64,000 nucleotides of DNA from Gonapodya prolifera JEL478 (lineage: Eukaryota > Monoblepharomycota > Monoblepharidomycetes > Monoblepharidales > Gonapodyaceae). Location of the stretch: contig KQ965763.1 of the NCBI GenBank assembly GCA_001574975.1, positions 2,536-66,535 on the forward strand. Reading direction: 5' to 3'. The notes under the pieces are model-generated. The model saw only the letters and a list, made by a program, of their open reading frames with translations, was not told the origin of the DNA and did no database searches. Of this stretch, positions 1 through 12,498 are shown one piece after another (the first letter of the stretch is position 1; the number at the start of each line of letters is the position of its first letter). The position numbers and the translations under genes were made by a program.

Positions 1-1224
1 TTCCCCCAATCTCGGGATCTAATTGCTCACGAGAAAACACACAAAGAACATATTTGCAAGTTTCCAGAGTGCAACTTGAAATTTGCTGATGCCAATATAC
101 TTAAAGCACATTTCATGACACATTCATACAAATGCACTTTTGAAGGATGTAGTAGTGCATTCAAAGATCAAAATGGACTGAACGTACATTTGCGAATTCA
201 TACTAACGAGAGGCCATTCAAATGTGATTTTGAAGGTTGTGGTATGATGTTCAGACGGTTGGGTGGTCTAATAACTCACAAACGATTGCATACTGGACAA
301 AAACCATTTGTGTGCGATTTTCAGGACTGTGATATGGCGTTTGTTCAATCCAATGCCCTTAAATCCCATTTGAAAACACACACTCGTGAAAAACCTTATC
401 ATTGCAATTTTGAAGGTTGTGGTCTGTCTTTTTCGCAGTCTTTCAATCTCGAAAAGCATGTACGAATACATACTGGAACCAAGCCTTACAAATGCACTTT
501 TGACGATTGTGATATGTCATTTACGCAGTCCAACGCACTTAAATCACATATTAGAATGCACGTTGGTGAACGACCTTTCAAATGCGAAATCAAAGACTGC
601 GAGGCATCATACACAACATCGAGTGCACTCACTATACATGTCCAAACTTTGCATACAGAACGTTATCGTGAAATACGCAAGAAGGAAGAACATAGGATTG
701 AAATTTTTCTCAAGTCTCATGATATTCAGTTTAATCGGGAGCATCAAATTAAATACTGTCAAACTGATGATGTTTCAGTTGCAAAAAATGGAATATTGGC
801 ACCTTCCAAGTACTCAAGAGTTGACTTTCTTTTAGAGCTGAAAGATGCCTCTGGGAATAAGTTCATAGTTTTCCTTGAAATTGATGAAGATCAACACGAA
901 AGATATGGTCTTGCTTGCGAAACCGCAAGAATGACAGAGCAACATTCGGAATTGGCAGCAAATGGAAATACTTTGCCTTTGGTTTTCATAAGGTACAATC
1001 CTCATTCATTCCAGATTGATGGCATAAACAAAAGGGTTACGCGAGATGAGCGCGAAAAGATCCTCTTGAAAACATTGGAAGAACTACAGACTCTAAGTTT
1101 TGAGCCACTATCAATGGTAATCAAATACATGTTTTACAGCGTTAGTGACAATCAATTGGAAGTATGGAGTAATGAGGAATATCCTGAGGAATTGAAAAAG
1201 CTTTGTATGAACTATGTTGTTTAG
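1..1224 (+). CDS. C2H2 zinc-finger array fused to a restriction-endonuclease-like domain (5' partial)
   Basis: The frame is open from base 1, so the start lies outside the window. Seen: one partial and seven complete C2H2 fingers of TFIIIA type (C-x4-C spacing such as CDFEGC, with TGEKP-like linkers), then a charged linker (RKKEEHRIE) and a C-terminal domain of about 170 residues. That domain holds SKYSRVDFLLEL, FLEIDEDQHE, LVFIRYNP and a conserved tail ending CMNYVV. The RVDF...ExDExQH pattern resembles a PD-(D/E)xK/Vsr-type nuclease core, with the D and E as likely metal ligands. Inference: fingers give DNA specificity and the C-terminal domain cuts or binds DNA, so this would be a natural zinc-finger nuclease. 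The copy at 10639-12000 has nearly the same C-terminal domain but different fingers. No intron is evident. The finger call is near certain; the nuclease call rests on motif shape. Confidence 0.8.
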   Translation, partial: FPQSRDLIAHEKTHKEHICKFPECNLKFADANILKAHFMTHSYKCTFEGCSSAFKDQNGLNVHLRIHTNERPFKCDFEGCGMMFRRLGGLITHKRLHTGQKPFVCDFQDCDMAFVQSNALKSHLKTHTREKPYHCNFEGCGLSFSQSFNLEKHVRIHTGTKPYKCTFDDCDMSFTQSNALKSHIRMHVGERPFKCEIKDCEASYTTSSALTIHVQTLHTERYREIRKKEEHRIEIFLKSHDIQFNREHQIKYCQTDDVSVAKNGILAPSKYSRVDFLLELKDASGNKFIVFLEIDEDQHERYGLACETARMTEQHSELAANGNTLPLVFIRYNPHSFQIDGINKRVTRDEREKILLKTLEELQTLSFEPLSMVIKYMFYSVSDNQLEVWSNEEYPEELKKLCMNYVV

Positions 1225-1622
1225 ATGCAATCAATGTGTAAAGAAAGTGTTTTAAAATTTCTATTTAATTTACGTAAATTTTTTACTGACTTTGACCAAA
1301 GCAATAGAAAGAGGCATCTCAACCTCAATAGACAACGGGAGGTTTTTACTCTCATCGCAGGCATTTGATGAGTGCTTATGAATTGATGAGGTTTCATATC
1401 TTCCGTGAAACTTTCCGTTATTCCAAACAATTGCCTCATCATTTCCTTGGAATCTATCACGATGCTTACATGCGTTTTTTTGATGACCAAAGTGTACAAT
1501 TGTTTTTAGAATGAAGTCGTGATTTGGAAAACTAAAGACGATAATGGTGAGAAGATCCGCAATTTTCTTTATATTTTCCCGCGATCCAATTCATCTGGTG
1601 CTGTGGCCCCATTTGTGAAATC
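1225..1622 (+). repeat. Duplicated 3' flank of the zinc-finger/nuclease gene (copy A)
   Basis: About 400 bp after the stop matches 12001-12412 after the second zinc-finger/nuclease gene. Shared blocks include 'catttgatgagtgcttatga', 'tgatgaccaaagtgtacaat' and 'ggaaaactaaagacgat'. No coding potential is convincing. The match shows that the duplicated unit included gene plus flank. Similarity fades just after about 1622. Confidence 0.8.
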
Positions 1623-1639
1623 CACTTTTCTAATCGTAC

Positions 1640-2220
1640 CAAAATTTTCCGAGATTTCAATCGAAAAAAGCGTTGATCTCAAACTCCCCCAAATTGCAAT
1701 TTTCGCTTGTAATGTTATTTCGCTAAATCTCAGAGGGTTTTCTTTTTTTGCTTTCGGACATTTTCCGAAAACCAAAATTTGTTTTCCGAAATTCGTAAAT
1801 TCCGGTTTAAGGCTTTTACCGTCGCGAAAATTGCGGCTTTTCAAGTTGGAAGATTTCGGAAAAGTTGTTTTGTAATTGCAGGAAATTTGAATAGACTTTT
1901 CAAAATTCGTAAATCCCGGCTAAACTATTTAACATTTTTCACAAATTGCGGATTTTCAGATTGGAAGATTTTGAAAAAGTTTTTTTTACTTATGGGAAAT
2001 TTTCCGAAATTATAAAACTTCTCGAAATCCGTAAATCACGGCTAAACTGTTTTAACCTAGCGAGGAAACTTTCCGAAATTTAAAAACGTATTTTTGAAAT
2101 CCGTAAATCCCGGCCAATCTTTTCAACCTTCCCGAAAAAATTGATAATTCCGAAATCTTCCAACTTGAAAATCCGCAATTTTGGCAAATGATGAAAAGGA
2201 AAATCTCTTAAAGAAAATCA
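1640..2220. repeat. Diverged satellite-like repeat, about 70-120 bp units
   Basis: The phrase 'cgtaaatcccggctaaa' and variants recur near 1795, 1910, 2030 and 2100. It is embedded in AT-rich text with 'ttccgaaat' and 'aaattgcggattttcaagtt' motifs. The copies are degenerate. The same repeat lies at 4890-5215. In both places it sits directly 3' of a coiled-coil gene on the minus strand. No gene is seen in this stretch. Confidence 0.7.
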
Positions 2221-2223
2221 ATT

Positions 2224-2883
2224 CTATATGCAAAACATTTTTTCTACCAATTCCACATGACCATTTTCTAGTAGAAATTTCATTATGTTCAACAGCGTTT
2301 CGTGTTGTATTTTGAATTTCTCAGTTTCCTTTTCTGATTCAATCCTTTCTTTTTCAATTTCCAAATCACTTTCCAACTTTATTCTTTTCATGTCATTATC
2401 TTCAGAATCATCACAACATTTCCTTTTGCATCTGACATTTCGGAGCACCCGTGAAGTCAAGTCACTTTTCTTGATTATTTCAAGCATTTCTTGTGTAATT
2501 TCCATGAATGCATTACCAATGCGTTTTTCGAGAATAGCATCTCTCAAATAATTGTATTTTTTAATCTCATCGAGTGCCCGTAAAAACACATATCCAATGA
2601 CATTTTGATTGCATTCCACAATATCTGTAACATCAAGGCTTTCTTGAAGATCTTTTAAGCGTAACATATTTGGATTCTCATCTGTAAACTCTCTGAAATA
2701 CTCCTTGAGATTACTTTCAATGAGAGTGGCTTCTACATGTCCTCGGAGTTTGATTGAATAGTCAATAATAATTGGTTCGGAAGACTCCGTTTCCATGTAG
2801 CAACTTAGATTTGATGCCCTCGTCATAACAACTACATGTGTGGAATTTGCTCCAATGATCAAAAAGTCTTTTGAAGGAAGCAT
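2224..2883 (-). CDS. Coiled-coil family protein, short copy lacking the N-terminal half
   Basis: Product of 219 aa, not recognised. Its C-terminal part aligns along its length with the C-terminal half of the protein at 5216-6984: a VEATLIESNLKEYFREF-type helix, a basic patch (CKRKCCDDSED), a Lys/Glu coiled coil (EIEKERIESEKETEKFKI) and the shared end VELVEKMFC. The leader before its ATG matches the leader of the long copy (a 'catcaaaattcttttctgaaa' block), and the first codons agree (MLPS versus MASL). The sequence then jumps to the region corresponding to about residue 340 of the long copy. The simplest reading is an internal deletion joining the start to the C-terminal half. Whether it is expressed is unknown. 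Confidence 0.6.
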   Translation of the reverse strand: MLPSKDFLIIGANSTHVVVMTRASNLSCYMETESSEPIIIDYSIKLRGHVEATLIESNLKEYFREFTDENPNMLRLKDLQESLDVTDIVECNQNVIGYVFLRALDEIKKYNYLRDAILEKRIGNAFMEITQEMLEIIKKSDLTSRVLRNVRCKRKCCDDSEDNDMKRIKLESDLEIEKERIESEKETEKFKIQHETLLNIMKFLLENGHVELVEKMFCI

Positions 2884-3117
2884 TGGTATTCTATTTCAGA
2901 AAAGAATTTTGATGAAAAATACGTTTTGCATTTCACAGGAATGTTGTGAATCTATTTTGGTCCGTGGAAGGGATGATGCTAATTATGTTGATTCAAATAA
3001 TAGAAACAAATGGAATTCAAGTTGAGATGCGCAAAAAAAGGGTGGAAATACATTATCCCATTCATCATTTTCTTGAAATTTCCCTCTAAAACTGGCTATA
3101 TCTCGTTAAAACAACAC

Positions 3118-3990
3118 TCAATAAAGATCATCTATCGATCCTTCAATATAATTCTCCCAATCAACATCGTTGTGATAATCATCCAAGTCATCGGCTGTCC
3201 AAGACAAACGATCCTTGTGTTTGTATAGACCAGAACTCCATATTGGATGCTATTTTCAAATATCAAATTGGCATGGTTTTTGAAATGGAGATTGAGGAGA
3301 CTTACTTCAAATGTCAATTCATTAAACCCATCTGCAAGTCGAGAAACATCATCCTGCTCCGTAATGGCTACAATTGGATTTGGGTCAACAATACTCGAAT
3401 TTCCTTTGGTAATCTCAAGGGTCTCAAACAAGTGCAATCCATGCAAAGAATACCACATACCTTCAAAAATTTCAGGATGATCTGCAAAGGTTATGACAGT
3501 ACCCTCCCTTTTATGAACTTTTCCAAAATAGATGTACTCCGGGAAGTTAAACCATGGCGATTGATATTTAGCAATGATTTTCCTCTCTTCAAATGGCGAA
3601 ATTTCTCGAAATTCCACCGGAACAATTTTGAAGTCTGGTATCTTCGTTGTATATCCCGTTTCAACAGCTCGTTGGTACTGTTTTCTGGCCCACTTCTCAG
3701 CAGCTTCCCAGCTTCCCCAGCAGGAAACCCATGGACTAGATTCTTTGCTTTTCCAGTTGATGTGATGGAGAATGTAATACTTCAAATCACTTCGAGACAA
3801 TGTCCTGCCAACAAAGGCTCTTGGCTTAAAGATGTCGTCCTCAAATCGTGTTTGGGATGTTGGATCGTAAAAGCGATAAAGGGTCCGAGGGACGACCTCT
3901 TCGTCAATGAAGTGTGGACTAACATTCTCGTTGGTGGTGAATCAATGGTTCCAGATCGCATTTCAAACACCCTCACTTGTCAGTTGGCAT
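3118..3990 (-). CDS. DUF7587-like protein with possible ADP-ribosyltransferase-like fold
   Basis: Three exons on the minus strand: 3990-3977, 3918-3306 and 3249-3118, with introns of 58 and 56 nt. The splice signals are GTGAGG...TTAG and GTAAGT...ATAG, and the joined frame gives 252 aa. The first exon codes only MPTD plus two bases. Residues 14-30 (VPRTLYRFYDPTSQTR), then HHINWKS and SPWVSCWGSWEAAEKWA, match the pattern I know for fungal DUF7587 proteins: an LYR or LFR strand, an HLxW segment and an S-W-x-S block followed by an Ala-rich helix. This layout recalls R-S-E ADP-ribosyltransferases, but that fold assignment is inference. The C-terminus is strongly acidic (DDLDDYHNDVDW). It is divergently arranged with the NADAR gene, with 133 bp between start codons. 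Confidence 0.65.
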
Positions 3991-4123
3991 TCCTTGACAA
4001 TGTGCGCGTCTTTCCTTGGTTGATTGGTTGGATTGGTTGGATGGGGTGCGGTCGCGTGACCTTAGTCGACCCTCAACGTTCCACCACATTCCATCCCTTT
4101 TTTTTTCTTGAACATTGACAGAA
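3991..4123. promoter_or_regulatory. Short divergent intergenic region between the DUF7587-like and NADAR genes
   Basis: Only 133 bp separate the two ATGs, so both promoters must lie here or overlap coding sequence. It holds a run of T with a few C just before the NADAR start, a common fungal core-promoter feature, and repeated 'ttggttgga' text near 4020-4040. No specific factor site is claimed. Confidence 0.5.
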
Positions 4124-4795
4124 ATGCCCAAAGCGGAAGGATCAATCATCTCAAATCGTGCCAACCTATATTCCCTACCAATGATTCCAAACATCAAGTC
4201 GCCATCAGAACAACTTGCCATTCTCCGGTCACATGATCCCTCTGCAACCACCCAACACACTTTTCTGCCATTTTTCGGCCATCACACATCTCCTGATGGT
4301 AGAATCACAGCTTCTTGTTTGAGCCAGTTCTACTCGATCCATTTCAAATTGGATGGCATCAACTATCCCTCTGCTGAGCACGCAATGATGGCTGCCAAAG
4401 CCCGCCTTTTCAATGACCATAAGACATTCAATCAAATTGTGAAGACGGCCACCCCAGCAAAGGCAAAAGCTTTGGGAAGGAAAGTCAAAGGATATGTCGA
4501 AAAGGAGTGGGACGCGGCGCGATACAACATTGTTGTGCGGAACAACCTGGCAAAATTTTCACAACATTCCAACCTGGGAGAATTTTTGCTGAGTACTGGA
4601 GAAAGTGTGCTTGTTGAAGCAAGCCCATGGGACACTATTTGGGGAATTGGATTCAGATATGATAGTCCTTTTGTTCGCTCACCTCGAGAGTGGAAAGGAC
4701 AAAATCTTTTGGGATTTGCGTTGATGGAAGTAAGAGAAAGGCTGAGATATGAAAAGAGGGAGAATTTTGAAGAGAATAGTAGGGATAAACTCTGA
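4124..4795 (+). CDS. NADAR-domain protein (predicted ADP-ribose-linked N-glycosidase)
   Basis: Single exon, 223 aa from the first ATG. The NADAR domain is complete from about residue 47: FFGHH, LSQFYSIHF, YPSAEHAMMAAKARLF, KALGRKVKGY, NNLAKFSQH, LVEASPWDTIWGIG and GQNLLGFALMEVRERLR. NADAR proteins act on ADP-ribosyl or N-glycosidic substrates. Some bacterial members remove ADP-ribose from guanine in DNA as antidotes in DarT-NADAR modules; others take part in riboflavin-related chemistry. The neighbouring divergent gene may encode an ADP-ribosyltransferase-like protein, so an addition/removal pair is plausible but unproven. The N-terminal 46 residues are a low-conservation extension with no clear transit peptide. 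Confidence 0.88.
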   Translation: MPKAEGSIISNRANLYSLPMIPNIKSPSEQLAILRSHDPSATTQHTFLPFFGHHTSPDGRITASCLSQFYSIHFKLDGINYPSAEHAMMAAKARLFNDHKTFNQIVKTATPAKAKALGRKVKGYVEKEWDAARYNIVVRNNLAKFSQHSNLGEFLLSTGESVLVEASPWDTIWGIGFRYDSPFVRSPREWKGQNLLGFALMEVRERLRYEKRENFEENSRDKL

Positions 4796-4889
4796 GAATG
4801 TGATATTTTAGCCTTTCGCATAAAAAGATGCCATTTCAGTATATTCTTTGGAAAACATTTTTGAAAAGTCGAAGAGCACATCGAAACAC

Positions 4890-5215
4890 AACGCTTAAGA
4901 ATCTTTTAATTTCAAGTTCGAAGATTCGCAAAAGGTTTTTTATATTGCGGAAAATATTCCGAAAACCGAAAATAAAACTCATACTTTTCCAAATTCGTAA
5001 TTCCCGGCTAAATTATTTAACTTTTACGAAAATTGCTGTTTTTATGTAGGAAGATTTCACAATACTTACAGGAAATTTTCCGAAATTTGAATACACTTGT
5101 ACATCGCGACTAAGCTAGTTTAACCTTTGCGAAATGCGGATTTTCAAGTTGGAATAGTTCGGAATTTTAAAATGATTGGAAATGACAAAAAGGAAAACGT
5201 TGAGAAGAAAAACTT
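4890..5215. repeat. Second copy of the satellite-like repeat 3' of a coiled-coil gene
   Basis: Text near 4995 ('ttcccggctaaattatttaa') and near 5110 ('cgcgactaagctagtttaac') matches the units at 1640-2220. The last about 60 bp before the gene end ('ggaaatgacaaaaaggaaaa') matches the 3' end of the short coiled-coil gene. No gene is seen in 4796-5215. Confidence 0.65.
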
Positions 5216-6984
5216 CTATTTGCAAAACATTTTTTCTGCCAGTTCTACATGCACCTTTTCCAGCAAAAGTTTCATCATTTCCAACCTTGATTGTTGTTCT
5301 ACTTTGAATTGCTCTGTTTCCTTCTCCGACTTAATCCTCTCCCTTTCTATTTCCACATCTTTTTCTGATTTTATCTTGTCTTTCTCAATTTCTGAATCTT
5401 TCTCCATCTTGATTTTCTTTAGCTGAAATTCTTCACTATCGTCAAATTTCCTCTTCCGGTCAAATAAACCCTCCACTTTCAAAGGCTCAGCAACATATGG
5501 AATGTGAAATTTCTTTCTCAAGCCCAAAAGCATGTCTTCCTGCATTTCCACAAAATAATTGTTTTCCCGAAAGTAAAGCGTGCTGTTTGCCATATATCCC
5601 TCTTTATTCCCTTCAACAATAGCCCTGTCAAATATGAAGAGCAAAACCTTTAAAGTAGCAGATTCATCCTGGTCAATTGAAAGTCTTTCTTGAAGTCGCT
5701 TCAGAACAATAAAGTCTTTTTTGTTTTCTTCAACAAATTCTTTGAAATACTCTTGGATTCTACTTTCAATGAAGGTTGCTTGAGCATGTGCCGTAAGTTT
5801 CATTGCAAAGGCAATGGAGATTTTATTTGAACGTGCAAGTTGTGTTTCCCTCTCCTCAAGATTTCTTGTTTCACCAATTTGGTATAGTTTTTGTTTGCTC
5901 CCAAGTAAAAATAATGATACGGAAACCTCCCAAGAGTTTGACGTGGTGTTTGTAAAGTACTGGGAATCTTTACTAATGATGTCGAATCCCGAGGAACTAT
6001 TTGATTTTGTTCAATGTTTGAATTTTCCGGTTCAGATTGTTCTGGTTGTTGAACAGGAACTGACGACGATCCGACGGCATTTGAATGTGCTATCTGAGAA
6101 ATCGCCGTGTTCTGAGAAGCTTGATAGTGATACAGGACTTCCGCAGCAAGTGATGTATCTCCGCCTATTTTTCGGATGTAAGTATCAAAAAAAGCTTTGT
6201 TGAATCCAAGAACTCGTGCATCTGAAGAACCCATGACAATTTGAAGAATATCAAGTGGCTGTGCCACCCATACCTTTCGCCCATCAAAATCGTGCAGAAT
6301 TGCTTGGTGGAAATTTGTTCCACCATTCCTATAATATTTCACCTTGTGTTTTGCTTGATCATCCGTCAAATTAGGAGTGAAAAGGCGCTTTAAAACACTA
6401 CCAATAGCGTAGTGCTTTACTCCGTTTATTTCCACCATTGTCGTTGGTGGTTCGAGAGCTTTCTCGAAAAGTTGAACAAGTTTTTGCTCTCCTGTCACAT
6501 TTCTCTCAAAAATTTGCCGATCAATCCACGTCAAGTTCCCGTTTTCTGTTTGTTGGTCCTTCTTTGTTCCATCTTCAAATCTTTCAACATTCTCTTTAAT
6601 TTCCGGAGTAGAATTTGAAGTATCCCCGGAAGTACTTGAATTTTCCTTTTCCGCCCGTTTTATCTCTTCAATTGTCTCCAGTGCAACCTTCTCTAATTTT
6701 TCATAGTCGCTCCAGCCATCTTTCACAACATGCCCTCTCTTAATTCCAAAGTACACCACAACATGTGCGTTTTTGAATGTTGCTGTGTGACTTGCTTGAT
6801 ATCCAACGATGTAAATCTGTTGTGAGAGTTTAGGGATTCCGCAATTTTGCACAATATCTCTGATGATATCTTTTGCTTTCTTTCTGCTTTTCTTCGTGAG
6901 CTTTTCAAAAAGTTGAACCAAAGACCAGTGTGTTTTGTCATTGGTTTGAGGACAACTTTTGATAAGTTCGATGAGGGAAGCCAT
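5216..6984 (-). CDS. Coiled-coil family protein, long copy
   Basis: Two exons, 6984-5974 and 5926-5216, separated by a 47-nt intron (GTAAAG...GGAG) that restores one frame of 573 aa. The join is supported by the short paralog at 2224-2883, whose FLIIGAN...IKLRGH segment aligns with the exon-2 start (VSLFLLGSKQKLYQIGETRN). N-terminal about 110 residues: a helix-rich unknown domain (THWSLVQLFEKLTKKSRKKA). Then comes an acidic linker, then about residues 180-300 with NGVKHYAIGSVLKRLF and GRKVWVAQPLDILQIVM, which I cannot assign. The C-terminus is a Lys/Glu coiled coil ending LLLEKVHVELAEKMFCK. The ATG is preceded by the same leader as the short copy. Function unknown. Confidence 0.65.
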
Positions 6985-7136
6985 TGAGTTGTTGTTTCAG
7001 AAAAAGAATTTTGATGAAATTCATGTTTTGTAATTCAAGAAATACATCAGGGGGTGATGATTTGAGATGTATTTGGGACGTGAAATTTGCATCAATTTTG
7101 CTGTTTGTTTTTGGAGATTTTAACACCAGACACTTT

Positions 7137-7690
7137 CAAACAAGATCTGAACCCATCGAAATTGATCCAACTACTTCTTTCCGAGCTATTTTCCATGACT
7201 AAAGCTTCCTCCTATCCAATAGTAGACGATACGCTTCCTGACATGTGAGAAAAGTCGAAACTCCCAAGTGATGCTTAGCAAAGTCTGCAATGCATTAAAT
7301 CAACTCTACAATCATGCATGCACTGAATACCAATTTCCATTTGTTTTATTATTGCTTGGTTTGCAATACGACGCTTCATATCAAGTCTTTCAATTGAGGG
7401 GAGTTCAGAGAACATACATATTAAGATCTAAACCCGTCGAGATTGATCACAACGCTTCTTTGCAAGCTACTTTTTATGACTAAAGCATCCTTTTATCGTA
7501 GGAAGGCTTGGTTCACGATACGCTTCCTGTCATGTGACGAAAGTCGAAACTCCCAAGTCATGCTTAGGAAAGTCCGCAACACATTAAATCATTTCTACGA
7601 TCATGCAATCATTGAATACCAGTCTCCATTAGCTATATTATTGCTTGGTTTTCAATACGCAGTCTCATACCACTTCTTGTGCCAAATGCA
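7137..7690. repeat. Tandem duplication of a non-coding unit, period about 290 bp
   Basis: Two adjacent diverged copies, about 7137-7400 and 7427-7690. Shared blocks include 'acgcttcctg', 'cgaaactcccaagt', 'atgcttag.aaagtc', 'tgaataccaatttccatt' and 'ttattgcttggttt'. The unit lies just upstream of the kinase-Sel1 gene and may contain its promoter. No gene is recognised in 6985-7727. Confidence 0.75.
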
Positions 7691-7727
7691 TCCCTTGCTT
7701 AGGCCGTCCCCATCCAACCCTCCCAAA

Positions 7728-10346
7728 ATGCTTGCTACTGCCCCAGGACCGCGTCTTCTTGACAAATTGAGCGCGCAAATCGCCCGGAATAACTCTGGAG
7801 AGCGTGCTCATGGCAAGGATGCCGTGACAATGCCGGTCAATCGGTTTGCTTACCCTGACCCTGTCGGCGATCTTTCGAAGAATCGCGGCGGAGATATAAA
7901 GATGGCCAGGATTCCAGAGACGTGGGAGATTGATATTAAAGATGTGGAATGCTCTTGGGATGACAGCTGTCTTATTGGGAAGGGCGGCTTTGCGACGGTT
8001 TATCGTGGAAAATGGAGGAATATTACAGTTGCTTTGAAAGTGATTGATGCCATCCCTGGACTTTATAACTCTTTGGTGAGTTTCTGAAGTATTCTGCTTG
8101 CTTTGTTACTATTTTCAAACTTGTTGTCTCATAGGAATTCGAAAATGAAGCTCGCGTTTGGTACAACGCAGTGTCTCCACATGTCGTCCCTTTTTATGGT
8201 GTTTGTCGCAAAGGAGCCAAATTTTTTTTCATTTCTCCGTACGTGGAGAATGGAAATGTGCGGGAATATTTGGAAAGCTTGAAATCCGATGGGGTTTGGG
8301 ATGTGGAAATGAAAAAGGAAACGTTGTGGCAGGTGAATTTTTATGGTTTTGCTTATTTTCGATGAGCTTGTTTGTAATGTTCCTTGAAGCTTTTGAACAT
8401 CGCCCAAGGACTGAAATATCTCCATGAAAACGATATCCTCCATTTGGACGTGAAACCGGAAAACGCCCTGATTGACAATGTGTATCGGGCAATGGTCACC
8501 GACTTTGGAACTTGTCTTATCCGTGAATTGGAAGGGCGCAATCATGGTGTTGGGACAGCTCAGTACATGGCTCCTGAACGCCTCAGAGGAGAAGTTCCAA
8601 CAAAAAAGGCAGATGTTTATGCTTTCGGAATAAGTCTGTTTGAGGTGAGGAATTGTCCTGCTCATGCATCTACCATGTTTGACATAAAAATTCAAGTTAT
8701 GGTTTCTGTGCAACCCTTACGACAACCTGGATGGGGATGACTTGGTGGAAATTGAATCAAAAAACAAACGACCTTCACTCCCAACATTCTGCAATATGCC
8801 AGAAGAAATCAAAATTTTGATGATTCGGTGCTGGGATGCAGATCCTAGTAAGCGTCCTGATTTAGATGACATTGTGAAAATTCTCTCCAAATATGTCAAG
8901 TGAGTCCTTGGGTATTTCATAATACTGCTTTTTGAAACACATTTTTCTCAACCAAGATATGACTTTCATCGTCTCAAACCGCCAAATATTGAGAATCTCC
9001 TTCCAAACATTCCAAATGATACTCTGGAGCTTGTTTCACTTGCGCAAAAATACTTTATAGGCACTCATGAAATTCCACAGGATTTGACAAGTTCATTCCA
9101 GTTGTACTTGAGAGCTGCAAAGTTTCAGCATTCAGAAGCGCATTTCCAAGTTGGATACTTTTATTATCATGGATTGGGACAGGTTTCACCAAATTTAACA
9201 GAATCAGCAAAATGGTTCACCAAGGCCGCTGAGCAAGGACATGCCAAAGCACAGGGCATTCTTGGAAACTCCTACAACAATGGAGAAGGACTGGAGAAGG
9301 ACTCTAAAATGGCTGTGTTTTGGTGGACAAAGGCCGGGAATTCCTACGCCAATGGAGAAGGAGTAGAGAAGGACTCCATAACGGCTGTGTTTTGGTGGAC
9401 CAAGGCCGCTGAGCAAGGGAATGCCGAAGCACAGTGCAATCTTGGAAACTCCTACACCAATGGAGAAGGAGTGAAGAAGCACTCTAAAATAGCCGTGTTC
9501 TGGTGGACCAAGGCCGCTGAGGAAGGGAATGCCGAAGCACAGTACAATCTTGGAAACTCCTACTACAATGGAAAAGGAGTGGAGAAAGACTCTAAAATGG
9601 CCGTGTTTTGGTGGACCAAGGCCGCTGAGCAAGGGAATGCCAAAGCACAGTGCGATCTTGGAGTTTCCTACGACAATGGAGAAGGGGTGGAAACAGACTC
9701 TAAAATGGCCGTGTATTGGTGGACCAAGGCCGCTGAGCAAGGGCAAGCCCAAGCACAATTCAATCTTGGATTTTTCTACGGCTATGGGAAAGGAGTGGAG
9801 AAAGACTCTAAAATGGCTGTTTTTTGGAACACCAAGGCCGCTGAGCAAGGGAATGTCGAAGCACAACGCAATCTTGGAATTTGCTACGCATATGGAAAAG
9901 GGGTGGAAACGGACTATAAAATGGCAGTGTTTTGGTTCACCAAGGCCGCAAAACAAGGCAATGCCAAAGCTCAGTACAATCTTGGAGTTTGCTACTACAA
10001 AGGTGAAGGGGTGGAAACGGACCATAAAATGGCAGTGTTTTGGTACACCAAGGCCGCTGAGCAAGGGCTTGCCCAAGCACAGTGCAATCTTGGACTTTCC
10101 TACGGAAATGGAAACGGGGTGGAAACAGACTATAAAATGGCAGTGTTTTGGTTCACCAAGGCTGCAGGGCAAGGCCACGCCCAAGCACAGTGGAATCTCG
10201 GAATTTGCTACGACAATGGAGTAGGGGTGGAAAAAGACAAGGAAATGACAGTGTTTTGGTACACCAAGGCTGCAGGGCAAGGACATGCTAGAGCACAAAT
10301 TGAATTACAAAGACTTCATGAAAAAGTTACAGCTCAAAAGAAATAG
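7728..10346 (+). CDS. TKL-type protein kinase fused to Sel1 repeats
   Basis: Five exons (7728-8075, 8135-8332, 8390-8644, 8697-8899, 8957-10346) join in frame to 797 aa with GT-AG introns of 52-59 nt. Kinase domain, residues about 80-330: glycine loop GKGGFATVYRG (84-94), VALK lysine 104, catalytic loop HLDVKPEN (D202, with HLD instead of HRD), DFG (220-222), GTAQYMAPE and a C-lobe WFLCNPYD. All catalytic residues are present, so it is probably active. Residues about 340-785 carry about 11 Sel1-like repeats of about 36 aa (pattern AxYNLGxxYxNGxGVExDxKMAVFWxTKAAEQG); one repeat has lost its first helix. Sel1 arrays bind proteins. The start uses aaaATG at 7728; an in-frame ATG at 7686 is possible. 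Kinase-Sel1 fusions form large families in some fungi and are thought to be signalling proteins. Confidence 0.9.
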
Positions 10347-10638
10347 TTTGGGAAATCATGCTTCACTGAAGAATGTGATTCACATGGTATTTCTTGTGGT
10401 TGTACGGAATATTTTATTCGTCAACTTTTTCAATTTTCTCATCAGAACTTTTGCAAATTCAAAGACGTTGTGGTGACAGATAAAGGAATTTGATGTTTCG
10501 CTTTTGAGATTAGAGACTTTGTTGAAAAATGATACTAAATTGAAAATCCTTCTTCCATCTCCAGAGAGTTGGTGATTTTCTTGAAATATTTTTTCTGTAT
10601 CAGTTCGCTCAAAGAAATCTTCATTCTTATTTAAGAAA

Positions 10639-12000
10639 ATGTCTGACGCTTTGAATGCTTCTGCTGTTGCTGGAACTTTGAAGAGAAAGACGGGTGATGA
10701 TGGAAGCAATGATGCAAAAAGGCAGAAGTTCATTTGTGATGTTTGCGGAAGAGCGAACACCAATGCTACAGACCTCAAAATACATAAGCGTATCCACACT
10801 GGCGAGAAACCGTTTGTTTGCGGAGTCATAGGATGTTCCAAAGCATTTGTTAGCTCAAGCGGTCTTAGAAAACACGAAATCATGCATTCGGATGAGAGAA
10901 AATATGAATGTGATTTCGAGGATTGTGATAAAACATTCCCTCGAAAAAATGCTCTTGAAAACCACATGAGAACTCACACTGGCATAAGACCATTCAAATG
11001 CCATTTTGAAGGTTCTGAGGCCACATACGCTCGGAATGACTACTTGCAAGCACATATCAATGCTCATAATGGTGCAAAGCCATTTGTATGTAATTTCGAA
11101 GGATGTGATATGGCATTTACTTCGTCCTCAAATCTTTACAGTTATAAATTGACGCACATCAAAGAAAATTTATATATTTGTGATTTTGAGGGTTGCGGAA
11201 AAGCTTTATCAAGAAGTGATCACCTTTTGACTCACAAACGTTTCCATCTTGGGGATAAACGGTACAAATGCGATGTTTCAAATTGTGATATGGCTTTTGT
11301 TACATCTTCTGCTCTTGTGATACACAAGAGAACACATACGGGAGAGAGGCCATATGTGTGCGAGATAGGAAGTTGCAAAAGGTCATTTATTGATTCCAGC
11401 AGTCTTCGTTCACACATAAGGACCGTACACACACTAAGATATAATGAGATACGTAAAAAGGAAGAGCATCGCATTGAACTTTTCTTGAAGAGTCACAATA
11501 TCAGTTTTGAGCGGGAACACCGGATAAACTATTGTGAAACTGATGATGTTTCTTTGCCAAAGAGCAATACTCAAGTGCCTTCGAAATACTCCCGCGTTGA
11601 CTTTTTATTAAAGATGCAAGATTCAAATAGGAATGCCTTTATTATATTTCTTGAAGTTGATGAAGATCAGCATGGAAAATATGGGTTATCGTGTGAAACC
11701 GCGAGAATGACGCAGCAGCACTCTGAGTTGGCAGCAAATGGAAACACTTTGCCTTTGATTTTCATAAGATACAACCCTCGTTCATTTCAAGTTGATGGTG
11801 TTACCAAAAGGGTTACGCGAGATGAACGTGAGAAAATCCTCTTAAAAACTTTGGAAGAACTACAGACACTAATCTTTGAGCCATTGTCTATGGCAGTCAA
11901 GTACATGTTTTATAGTGTCAGTGATCATCAATTGGAAGTATGGAGCAATGAAGAATATCCCGAAGAATTGAAAAAACTCTGTATGGACTATGTTGTTTAG
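10639..12000 (+). CDS. C2H2 zinc-finger array fused to a restriction-endonuclease-like domain (complete copy)
   Basis: Single exon, 453 aa, complete paralog of the gene at 1-1224. The first finger has CDVC spacing; the rest use C-x4-C. Eight fingers are visible. Finger 4 has lost its second Cys (CHFEGS) and finger 5 its first His (NLYSYKLTH), so six look able to bind zinc. The N-terminal 30 residues include the basic stretch KRKTGDDG...KRQK, a possible nuclear signal. The C-terminal domain (RKKEEHRIELFLKSHNI, SKYSRVDFLLKM, FLEVDEDQHGKYG, LIFIRYNP, WSNEEYPEELKKLCMDYVV) is nearly identical to the first copy. Finger recognition helices differ strongly (for example NATDLKIH and RSDHLLTH here, DQNGLNVH and QSNALKSH there), so the two copies should read different DNA. 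Nuclease function is inferred from motif pattern. Confidence 0.82.
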   Translation: MSDALNASAVAGTLKRKTGDDGSNDAKRQKFICDVCGRANTNATDLKIHKRIHTGEKPFVCGVIGCSKAFVSSSGLRKHEIMHSDERKYECDFEDCDKTFPRKNALENHMRTHTGIRPFKCHFEGSEATYARNDYLQAHINAHNGAKPFVCNFEGCDMAFTSSSNLYSYKLTHIKENLYICDFEGCGKALSRSDHLLTHKRFHLGDKRYKCDVSNCDMAFVTSSALVIHKRTHTGERPYVCEIGSCKRSFIDSSSLRSHIRTVHTLRYNEIRKKEEHRIELFLKSHNISFEREHRINYCETDDVSLPKSNTQVPSKYSRVDFLLKMQDSNRNAFIIFLEVDEDQHGKYGLSCETARMTQQHSELAANGNTLPLIFIRYNPRSFQVDGVTKRVTRDEREKILLKTLEELQTLIFEPLSMAVKYMFYSVSDHQLEVWSNEEYPEELKKLCMDYVV

Positions 12001-12412
12001 TAATCTATATGTAATATAGTTGATATAAAATTTCGATTGAATTTTTAAATTTTCCGCTGACTTGACCAAAGTACCTGAAAGAGCTATCAACCTCAGGAGG
12101 CATCATGTGGTTGCTTACTTCATCTCATCGAACATCGCAGACATTTGATGAGTGCTTATGAATTGATGGGGTTTCGCATCTACCATGAAATCTTCCGATA
12201 GTCCAAAGAATTGCCGGAATTTGCCTCATCATTTCCTTGGAACTCATCACGATGCTTGCATTCATTTCTTGATGACCAAAGTGTACAATCGTTTTTAGAA
12301 TGAAGTCACATTTTGGAAAACTAAAGACGATGGTGGCGAAAAGATCCGCAATTTTCCTATTATTTTTCCGCGCTCAAATTCATCCGATGCTGTGGTCCAT
12401 TTATGAAATCCA
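12001..12412 (+). repeat. Duplicated 3' flank of the zinc-finger/nuclease gene (copy B)
   Basis: Matches 1225-1622 in order over about 400 bp with moderate divergence. The match stops at about 12412, exactly where base composition changes from AT-rich to GC-rich, so the flank is cut by the island edge. Confidence 0.8.
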
Positions 12413-12498
12413 AATTACTAAATCTAAATACACACCTTTAGCCTGCGTGCTTCGGGCTGGACCGTGGACCGGACCGGACCGTCCGCAACGCTAGAGCT

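Follow-up and report, generated by a model that had tools for sequence, protein, structure and literature searches.

Two genes joining C2H2 zinc-finger arrays to a predicted Vsr-like nuclease domain in an AT-rich stretch of the Gonapodya prolifera JEL478 genome

Organisation of the two fusion genes

A stretch of 64,000 nucleotides of the genome of Gonapodya prolifera JEL478 (contig KQ965763.1, hereafter C33; C33:2536-66535), referred to as the window, was analysed within a genome of 47.6 Mb and 207 contigs. Two genes, designated A and B, each carry an array of C2H2 zinc fingers followed by the same C-terminal nuclease-like domain of about 190 residues. They are not adjacent, being 9.4 kb apart, and both are located inside an AT-rich stretch, with a G+C content per 2 kb of 0.37–0.44 up to 12 kb and of 0.50–0.59 from 14 kb on. 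All features of the two genes given below are on the plus strand.

Gene A (1–1224) is an open frame whose 5′ end runs into a run of N (C33:1-2535), so that its start is unreadable. Seven readable C2H2 fingers (55–654) were recognised by profile match, finger motifs and shuffles, and are followed by the C-terminal domain (655–1221), 79% identical to that of gene B. Gene B (10639–12000) is an open reading frame of 453 amino acids from the first ATG at 10639, within a stop-to-stop frame of 10585–12000. A basic stretch of the form KRK...KRQK (10681–10728) resembles a bipartite nuclear localisation signal. Eight finger units, identified by profile match and finger motifs (10735–11430), include two degenerate ones with lost zinc ligands, finger 4 (Cys to Ser) and finger 5 (His to Tyr); the paralogue on contig C17 has neither loss, all 8 of its units being intact. 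The nuclease-like domain of gene B (P0001; 11431–11997), delimited from sequence and predicted structure, starts directly after the last finger.

Strict C2H2 motifs numbered 7 in A and 6 in B. In 2000 shuffles of the residues of each gene, no more than 1 was ever obtained, and the means were 0.046 (A) and 0.024 (B). The C2H2 profile PF00096 scored 103 bits (A) and 113 bits (B), above the cut-off of 25.2 and placing both arrays in this family. A preliminary description of this DNA had proposed two genes, each joining a C2H2 array to one and the same C-terminal domain, which the motifs, the shuffles and the domain identity confirm. The pattern RVDF...ExDExQH reported there was also recovered, with RVDF and E(V/I)DEDQH present in both genes; in the alignment, these motifs of gene B are located at 11593–11604 (Asp 57 of the domain) and 11653–11673 (EVDEDQH, domain residues 75–81).

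Conservation and predicted fold of the nuclease-like domain

Residues E75, D77, E78, Q80 and H81 were invariant in 6 of the 6 domains aligned from this genome, down to 32% identity, and the Asp of RVDF was kept in all four of the six rows that cover the position, one of them reading HVDF. The Asp/Glu pair, whose absence across the family had been named in the preliminary description as an argument against a nuclease, is retained in the rows that cover both positions. The RVDF Asp and E75 agree with the PD-(D/E)xK pattern, but ExD is found where ExK is usual and the lysine position is not occupied by lysine.

The predicted structure shows the order helix, three strands, helix, strand, helix, strand, in accordance with the core fold of the PD-(D/E)xK superfamily. 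The leading VIA-align rows were I-Bth0305I (7.6), Bax1 (7.4) and Vsr (7.2), and two of these first three rows thus point to the Vsr/EDxHD group, but Bax1 is tied with them within 1 Z. In the BFVD structure search, the matches included giant-virus endonucleases and C2H2 proteins. The sequence of the domain gave no significant profile match in Pfam, NCBIfam or PHROGs (PHROGs best E 0.085), and against PDB sequences nothing significant was obtained with phmmer (best E 0.32) or hmmsearch (best E 0.13). Membership of a Vsr/EDxHD sequence profile was accordingly not found in Pfam, NCBIfam or PHROGs. DUF559 (PF04480) was tried as a further candidate and had no match at E ≤ 1 in A, in B or in the whole genome, while 4 of 14 control genomes were matched. 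The earlier comparison with a Vsr/PD-(D/E)xK nuclease is supported in part: prediction favours a Vsr/I-Bth0305I-like PD-(D/E)xK fold, and sequence profiles do not match.

The proteins are most likely site-specific endonucleases, in which the fingers would bind and the Vsr-like domain would cut. The C2H2 array would recognise its DNA site through the major groove, and the domain, nearly linkerless behind the last finger, would cut beside the bound site by means of a metal ion that the Asp of RVDF and the acids of ExD coordinate; a DNA target and metal-dependent cleavage would then be expected of the fusion protein. On the other hand, the missing lysine could indicate an inactive nuclease, the protein being a zinc-finger DNA-binding regulator in which the nuclease-like domain merely dimerises or holds partners. 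This is quite improbable, considering the invariance of the five residues in all six domains, the purifying selection on the domain described below, and the ExD...QH variant, which occurs also in Vsr/DUF559-type enzymes.

Copies in the genome, selection and viral relatives

The nuclease-like domain was detected at 8 loci (C33 twice, C17, C83, C201 twice, C77 and C73), and these locus counts are lower bounds. Gene B and the C17 copy are open throughout, and gene A is open over its readable part; the C83 copy has one in-frame stop, the copies of C201, C77 and C73 change frame inside the gene (for C73, an intron is possible), and the second match on C201 is fragmentary and contains a stop. N-terminal pieces only were found at four further places (C37 twice, C66 and C83:37693). 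The family copies decay and multiply. The divergent copies of C201, C77 and C73 likewise have fingers ahead of the domain, and the fusion is therefore old in this genome; the domain identity to gene B is 42% for C201 and 32% for C73. Beside the divergent C201 copy, a hAT transposase dimerisation region (locus L014, 2153–2749) and a long tandem array of units spaced at about 170 bp (L014, 7609–10139) were observed.

The domain is under purifying selection, with nonsynonymous and synonymous rates (dN/dS, NG86) of 0.016/0.10 for the pair B–C17 and of 0.13–0.14/0.76–1.58 for the other five pairs. For the finger part of B–C17 the rates were 0.081/0.45. Comparison of A with B, using a finger-position register from a three-row alignment, gave identities of 150/189 in the domain, 28/30 at zinc ligands, 40/111 in the finger framework and 5/29 at base-contact positions; the framework and contact figures, set against that of the domain, show a much greater divergence of the finger arrays than of the nuclease. 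Between B and C17 there was no excess change at contact residues (5/32 contact and 19/119 framework positions differ, p 1.0), and the excess was not significant for A–B (p 0.073) and marginal for A–C17 (p 0.040). Rapid change of base contacts, considered as a sign of retargeting, was thus absent, weak and marginal in the three pairs, respectively.

The top structural match of the domain was A0A1C9C5F7 of Heterosigma akashiwo virus 01 (Foldseek E 1.2e-11, 34% identity, 168 columns), and by Foldseek a homologous nuclease domain is present in giant-virus C2H2-endonuclease proteins. A0A1C9C5F7 and others named C2H2/Endonuclease have the nuclease-like fold in common with genes A and B, and the name implies fingers in the same chain; C2H2 in the viral relatives is known from the protein names alone, in 6 of 31 matches. 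A0A1C9C5F7, unlike the genes described here, is viral, and the comparison with it covered fold and name. The terms zinc finger, C2H2 and endonuclease are absent from the main text of PMC5127864, which describes the genome of Heterosigma akashiwo virus.

Genes of nucleocytoplasmic large DNA viruses were also found in this genome. Capsid genes are present at C176:12521-13663 (−) and C52:154916-156040 (−), with open frames of 411 and 407 amino acids, and VLTF3 matches at six loci (C41, C195, C117, C6, C15 and C51); of the three families of viral marker genes searched, none of those found sits on a contig with a zinc-finger/nuclease gene. In its available portion, PMC5294986 describes genes of these viruses in Gonapodya, Rhizophagus and Allomyces; the D5 primase-helicases of fungi are placed there near Heterosigma akashiwo virus. 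This is the same virus as that of the top structural match, which suggests a viral source of, or exchange for, the zinc-finger/nuclease family. Beyond this genome, no relatives were found in viral contigs, genome contigs or phage tblastn, a result of little weight for giant viruses, in which these collections are poor; 145 + 19 viral-contig loci scored with the A1 profile included no relative (best E 0.23 and 0.1).

The giant-virus marker genes mean that there is something to defend against, and the family could serve host defence. The fungus would use it to cut the DNA of viruses or transposons at recognised target sites, and the islands would be defence-like clusters expanded by an arms race. 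The strong difference between the A and B arrays with a conserved nuclease, as well as a NADAR gene nearby, are in accordance with this. However, most copies are broken or fragments, the pair B–C17 lacks the contact-residue excess, and the closest relatives are themselves viral, and we consider a defence role unlikely.

Island edge and possible role in mobility

The copies C33-B, C17 and C83 have the same gene order: kinase, Sel1 repeats, zinc-finger/nuclease gene and island edge. In the window, the kinase is represented by kinase-like gene pieces (7704–8737, +; open reading frames, profile match and homology) and the Sel1 repeats by an open frame between them and gene B (8904–10343, +; open reading frame and profile match). 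Sequence comparison showed that the 3′ flank of gene B (12001–12425, +) is common to the C17 copy and partly to C83. Homology 3′ of the stop codon spans about 450 bp and ends in the three copies at the same point, the 20-mer AAATACACACCTTTAGCCTG (12426–12445, +), recognised by alignment and genome motif search. Allowing up to 2 mismatches, this 20-mer matched the genome at 3 places, each time exactly, at one of these island edges and in the same orientation to the gene, while the pattern read backwards, as control, had one match. Over the 40 bases preceding it, pairwise agreement was 2–9 of each 10 bases, against 20/20 within it.

The first 12 bases beyond the 20-mer (12446–12457, +), which may be part of the end or a preferred target, are identical in the three copies at 8 of 12 positions; none of 20,000 random flank triples reached 8 (maximum 6), although the site was chosen post hoc. 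The motif GTG[CG][AT]TCGG[GT]C occurred, in the 198 kb scanned, at the three junctions and at one site 47 bp inside the C83 edge. Farther outside the edge the flanks of the three copies are unrelated, and the G+C content per kb rises from 0.37–0.38 to 0.53–0.64. An identical end in probably separate insertions was thus found at 3 of 3 island edges, three cases only. By sequence comparison, the 3′ flank of gene A (1225–1633, +) shows homology with those of B and C17 over most of its extent and lacks the 20-mer.

We read the shared edge, from these sequence comparisons, as the probable 3′ end of an inserting element. Terminal inverted repeats were not found, the genome search giving the 20-mer in no inverted form; no left end, target duplication or empty site was seen, the left ends lying beyond the sequence examined, and no copy spanning the junction was found for the right flank of gene B. 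Alternatively, the edge could be a breakpoint shared by successive segmental duplications, in a region that is duplicating and may be subtelomeric. Long stretches are indeed duplicated within and between C33, C17 and C83, two copies are located less than 36 kb from a contig end and gene A is at a contig end. Nevertheless, the outside DNA is unrelated in the three copies and yet the end is identical, and no TTAGGG-type array is present at the five contig ends examined; because the flanks differ, serial duplication with a shared breakpoint is judged less likely, and we regard it as possible but rather doubtful. Additionally, repeats that have relatives on C148 and C26 start 48 bp beyond the edge (window 12494, C33:15029), and a second repeat boundary is therefore close to the junction.

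Returning to an inserting element, the family would be the gene that closes AT-rich islands of several genes, among them the kinase and the Sel1 repeats; such islands occur at several sites in the genome and have a fixed 3′ end, and the nuclease would serve their spread, as a homing or transposition nuclease would. We infer a mobility role and a viral source from the island ends and the structural matches; that these are natural zinc-finger nucleases related to giant-virus proteins and most likely serving the spread of AT-rich islands is given about an even chance. The more specific proposal of a mobile element driven by a natural zinc-finger nuclease, which marks the fixed end of giant-virus-related islands and redirects them by finger changes, is tentative and held to be doubtful. 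If the island ends are element ends, the family would supply the nuclease of a large mobile element of an undescribed kind, present in a fungus-like genome and tied to giant viruses. Kinase-family matches numbered 47, most at loci without a nuclease-domain match, and the island gene set is therefore not a fixed unit. The kinase family with Sel1 repeats comprises window 7704–10343 and 46 further matches, several in AT-rich islands, and at least three kinase/Sel1 copies are followed by a zinc-finger/nuclease gene.

Regarding known systems, to our knowledge the zinc-finger nucleases in use are man-made FokI fusions. These engineered enzymes act as dimers and resemble genes A and B in a C2H2 array followed by a C-terminal PD-(D/E)xK-type nuclease, but the genes described here are natural and their domain is Vsr-like. 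A natural counterpart of the engineered design would illustrate how a modular DNA reader becomes joined to a cutter in evolution, and its compact Vsr-like domain, nearly directly on the last finger, would offer a small nuclease domain for study. Vsr is a mismatch repair nickase; both Vsr and I-Bth0305I, an EDxHD homing endonuclease, are bacterial or phage proteins without a C2H2 array, and their sequence similarity to the domain is not significant. Vsr-like homing nucleases are described in phages and mirusviruses in the portions available of PMC3943268 and PMC12768974, the latter with 16 cases of Vsr-like endonucleases in mirusvirus introns, tied to gene mobility. The mirusvirus enzymes resemble the present family as Vsr-like nucleases tied to mobility in viruses of eukaryotes, but they are intron-encoded, and the term zinc finger is absent from the main text of PMC12768974.

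R2 non-LTR retrotransposon proteins, as far as described in the available part of PMC10499050, likewise combine, within a single natural chain, a C2H2 finger at the N terminus with a restriction-like endonuclease at the C terminus, and genes A and B could be remnants of such an element that lost its reverse transcriptase; zebra finch R2 was also rank 3 in the Foldseek PDB search (E 0.096). No reverse transcriptase was found in the A or B frame, where significant matches were to zinc fingers only and the 5′ part of A is unreadable, and an R2 remnant is considered highly improbable. No description of a C2H2-array/Vsr-like nuclease fusion was found in a literature search of titles and abstract openings. 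Within that scope, the earlier statement that the fusion is no standard described family holds, with the restriction that a chain of C2H2 finger plus endonuclease is known from R2. The present genes differ from these systems in that many C2H2 fingers are set directly on a Vsr-like domain, in their presence in a fungus-like genome and in the position at island ends.

The interval between genes A and B contains open frames matching DUF7587, NADAR, kinase and Sel1 in profile searches. Two related genes are located at window 5219–6010 (−) and 2227–2895 (−), their family having 17 matches genome-wide; the former shows a T5orf172/MUG113-like match below the cut-offs. The AT-rich stretch also contains a DUF7587 gene (window 3132–3941, −; 41 bits) and a NADAR-domain gene (window 4112–4792, +; 175 bits).
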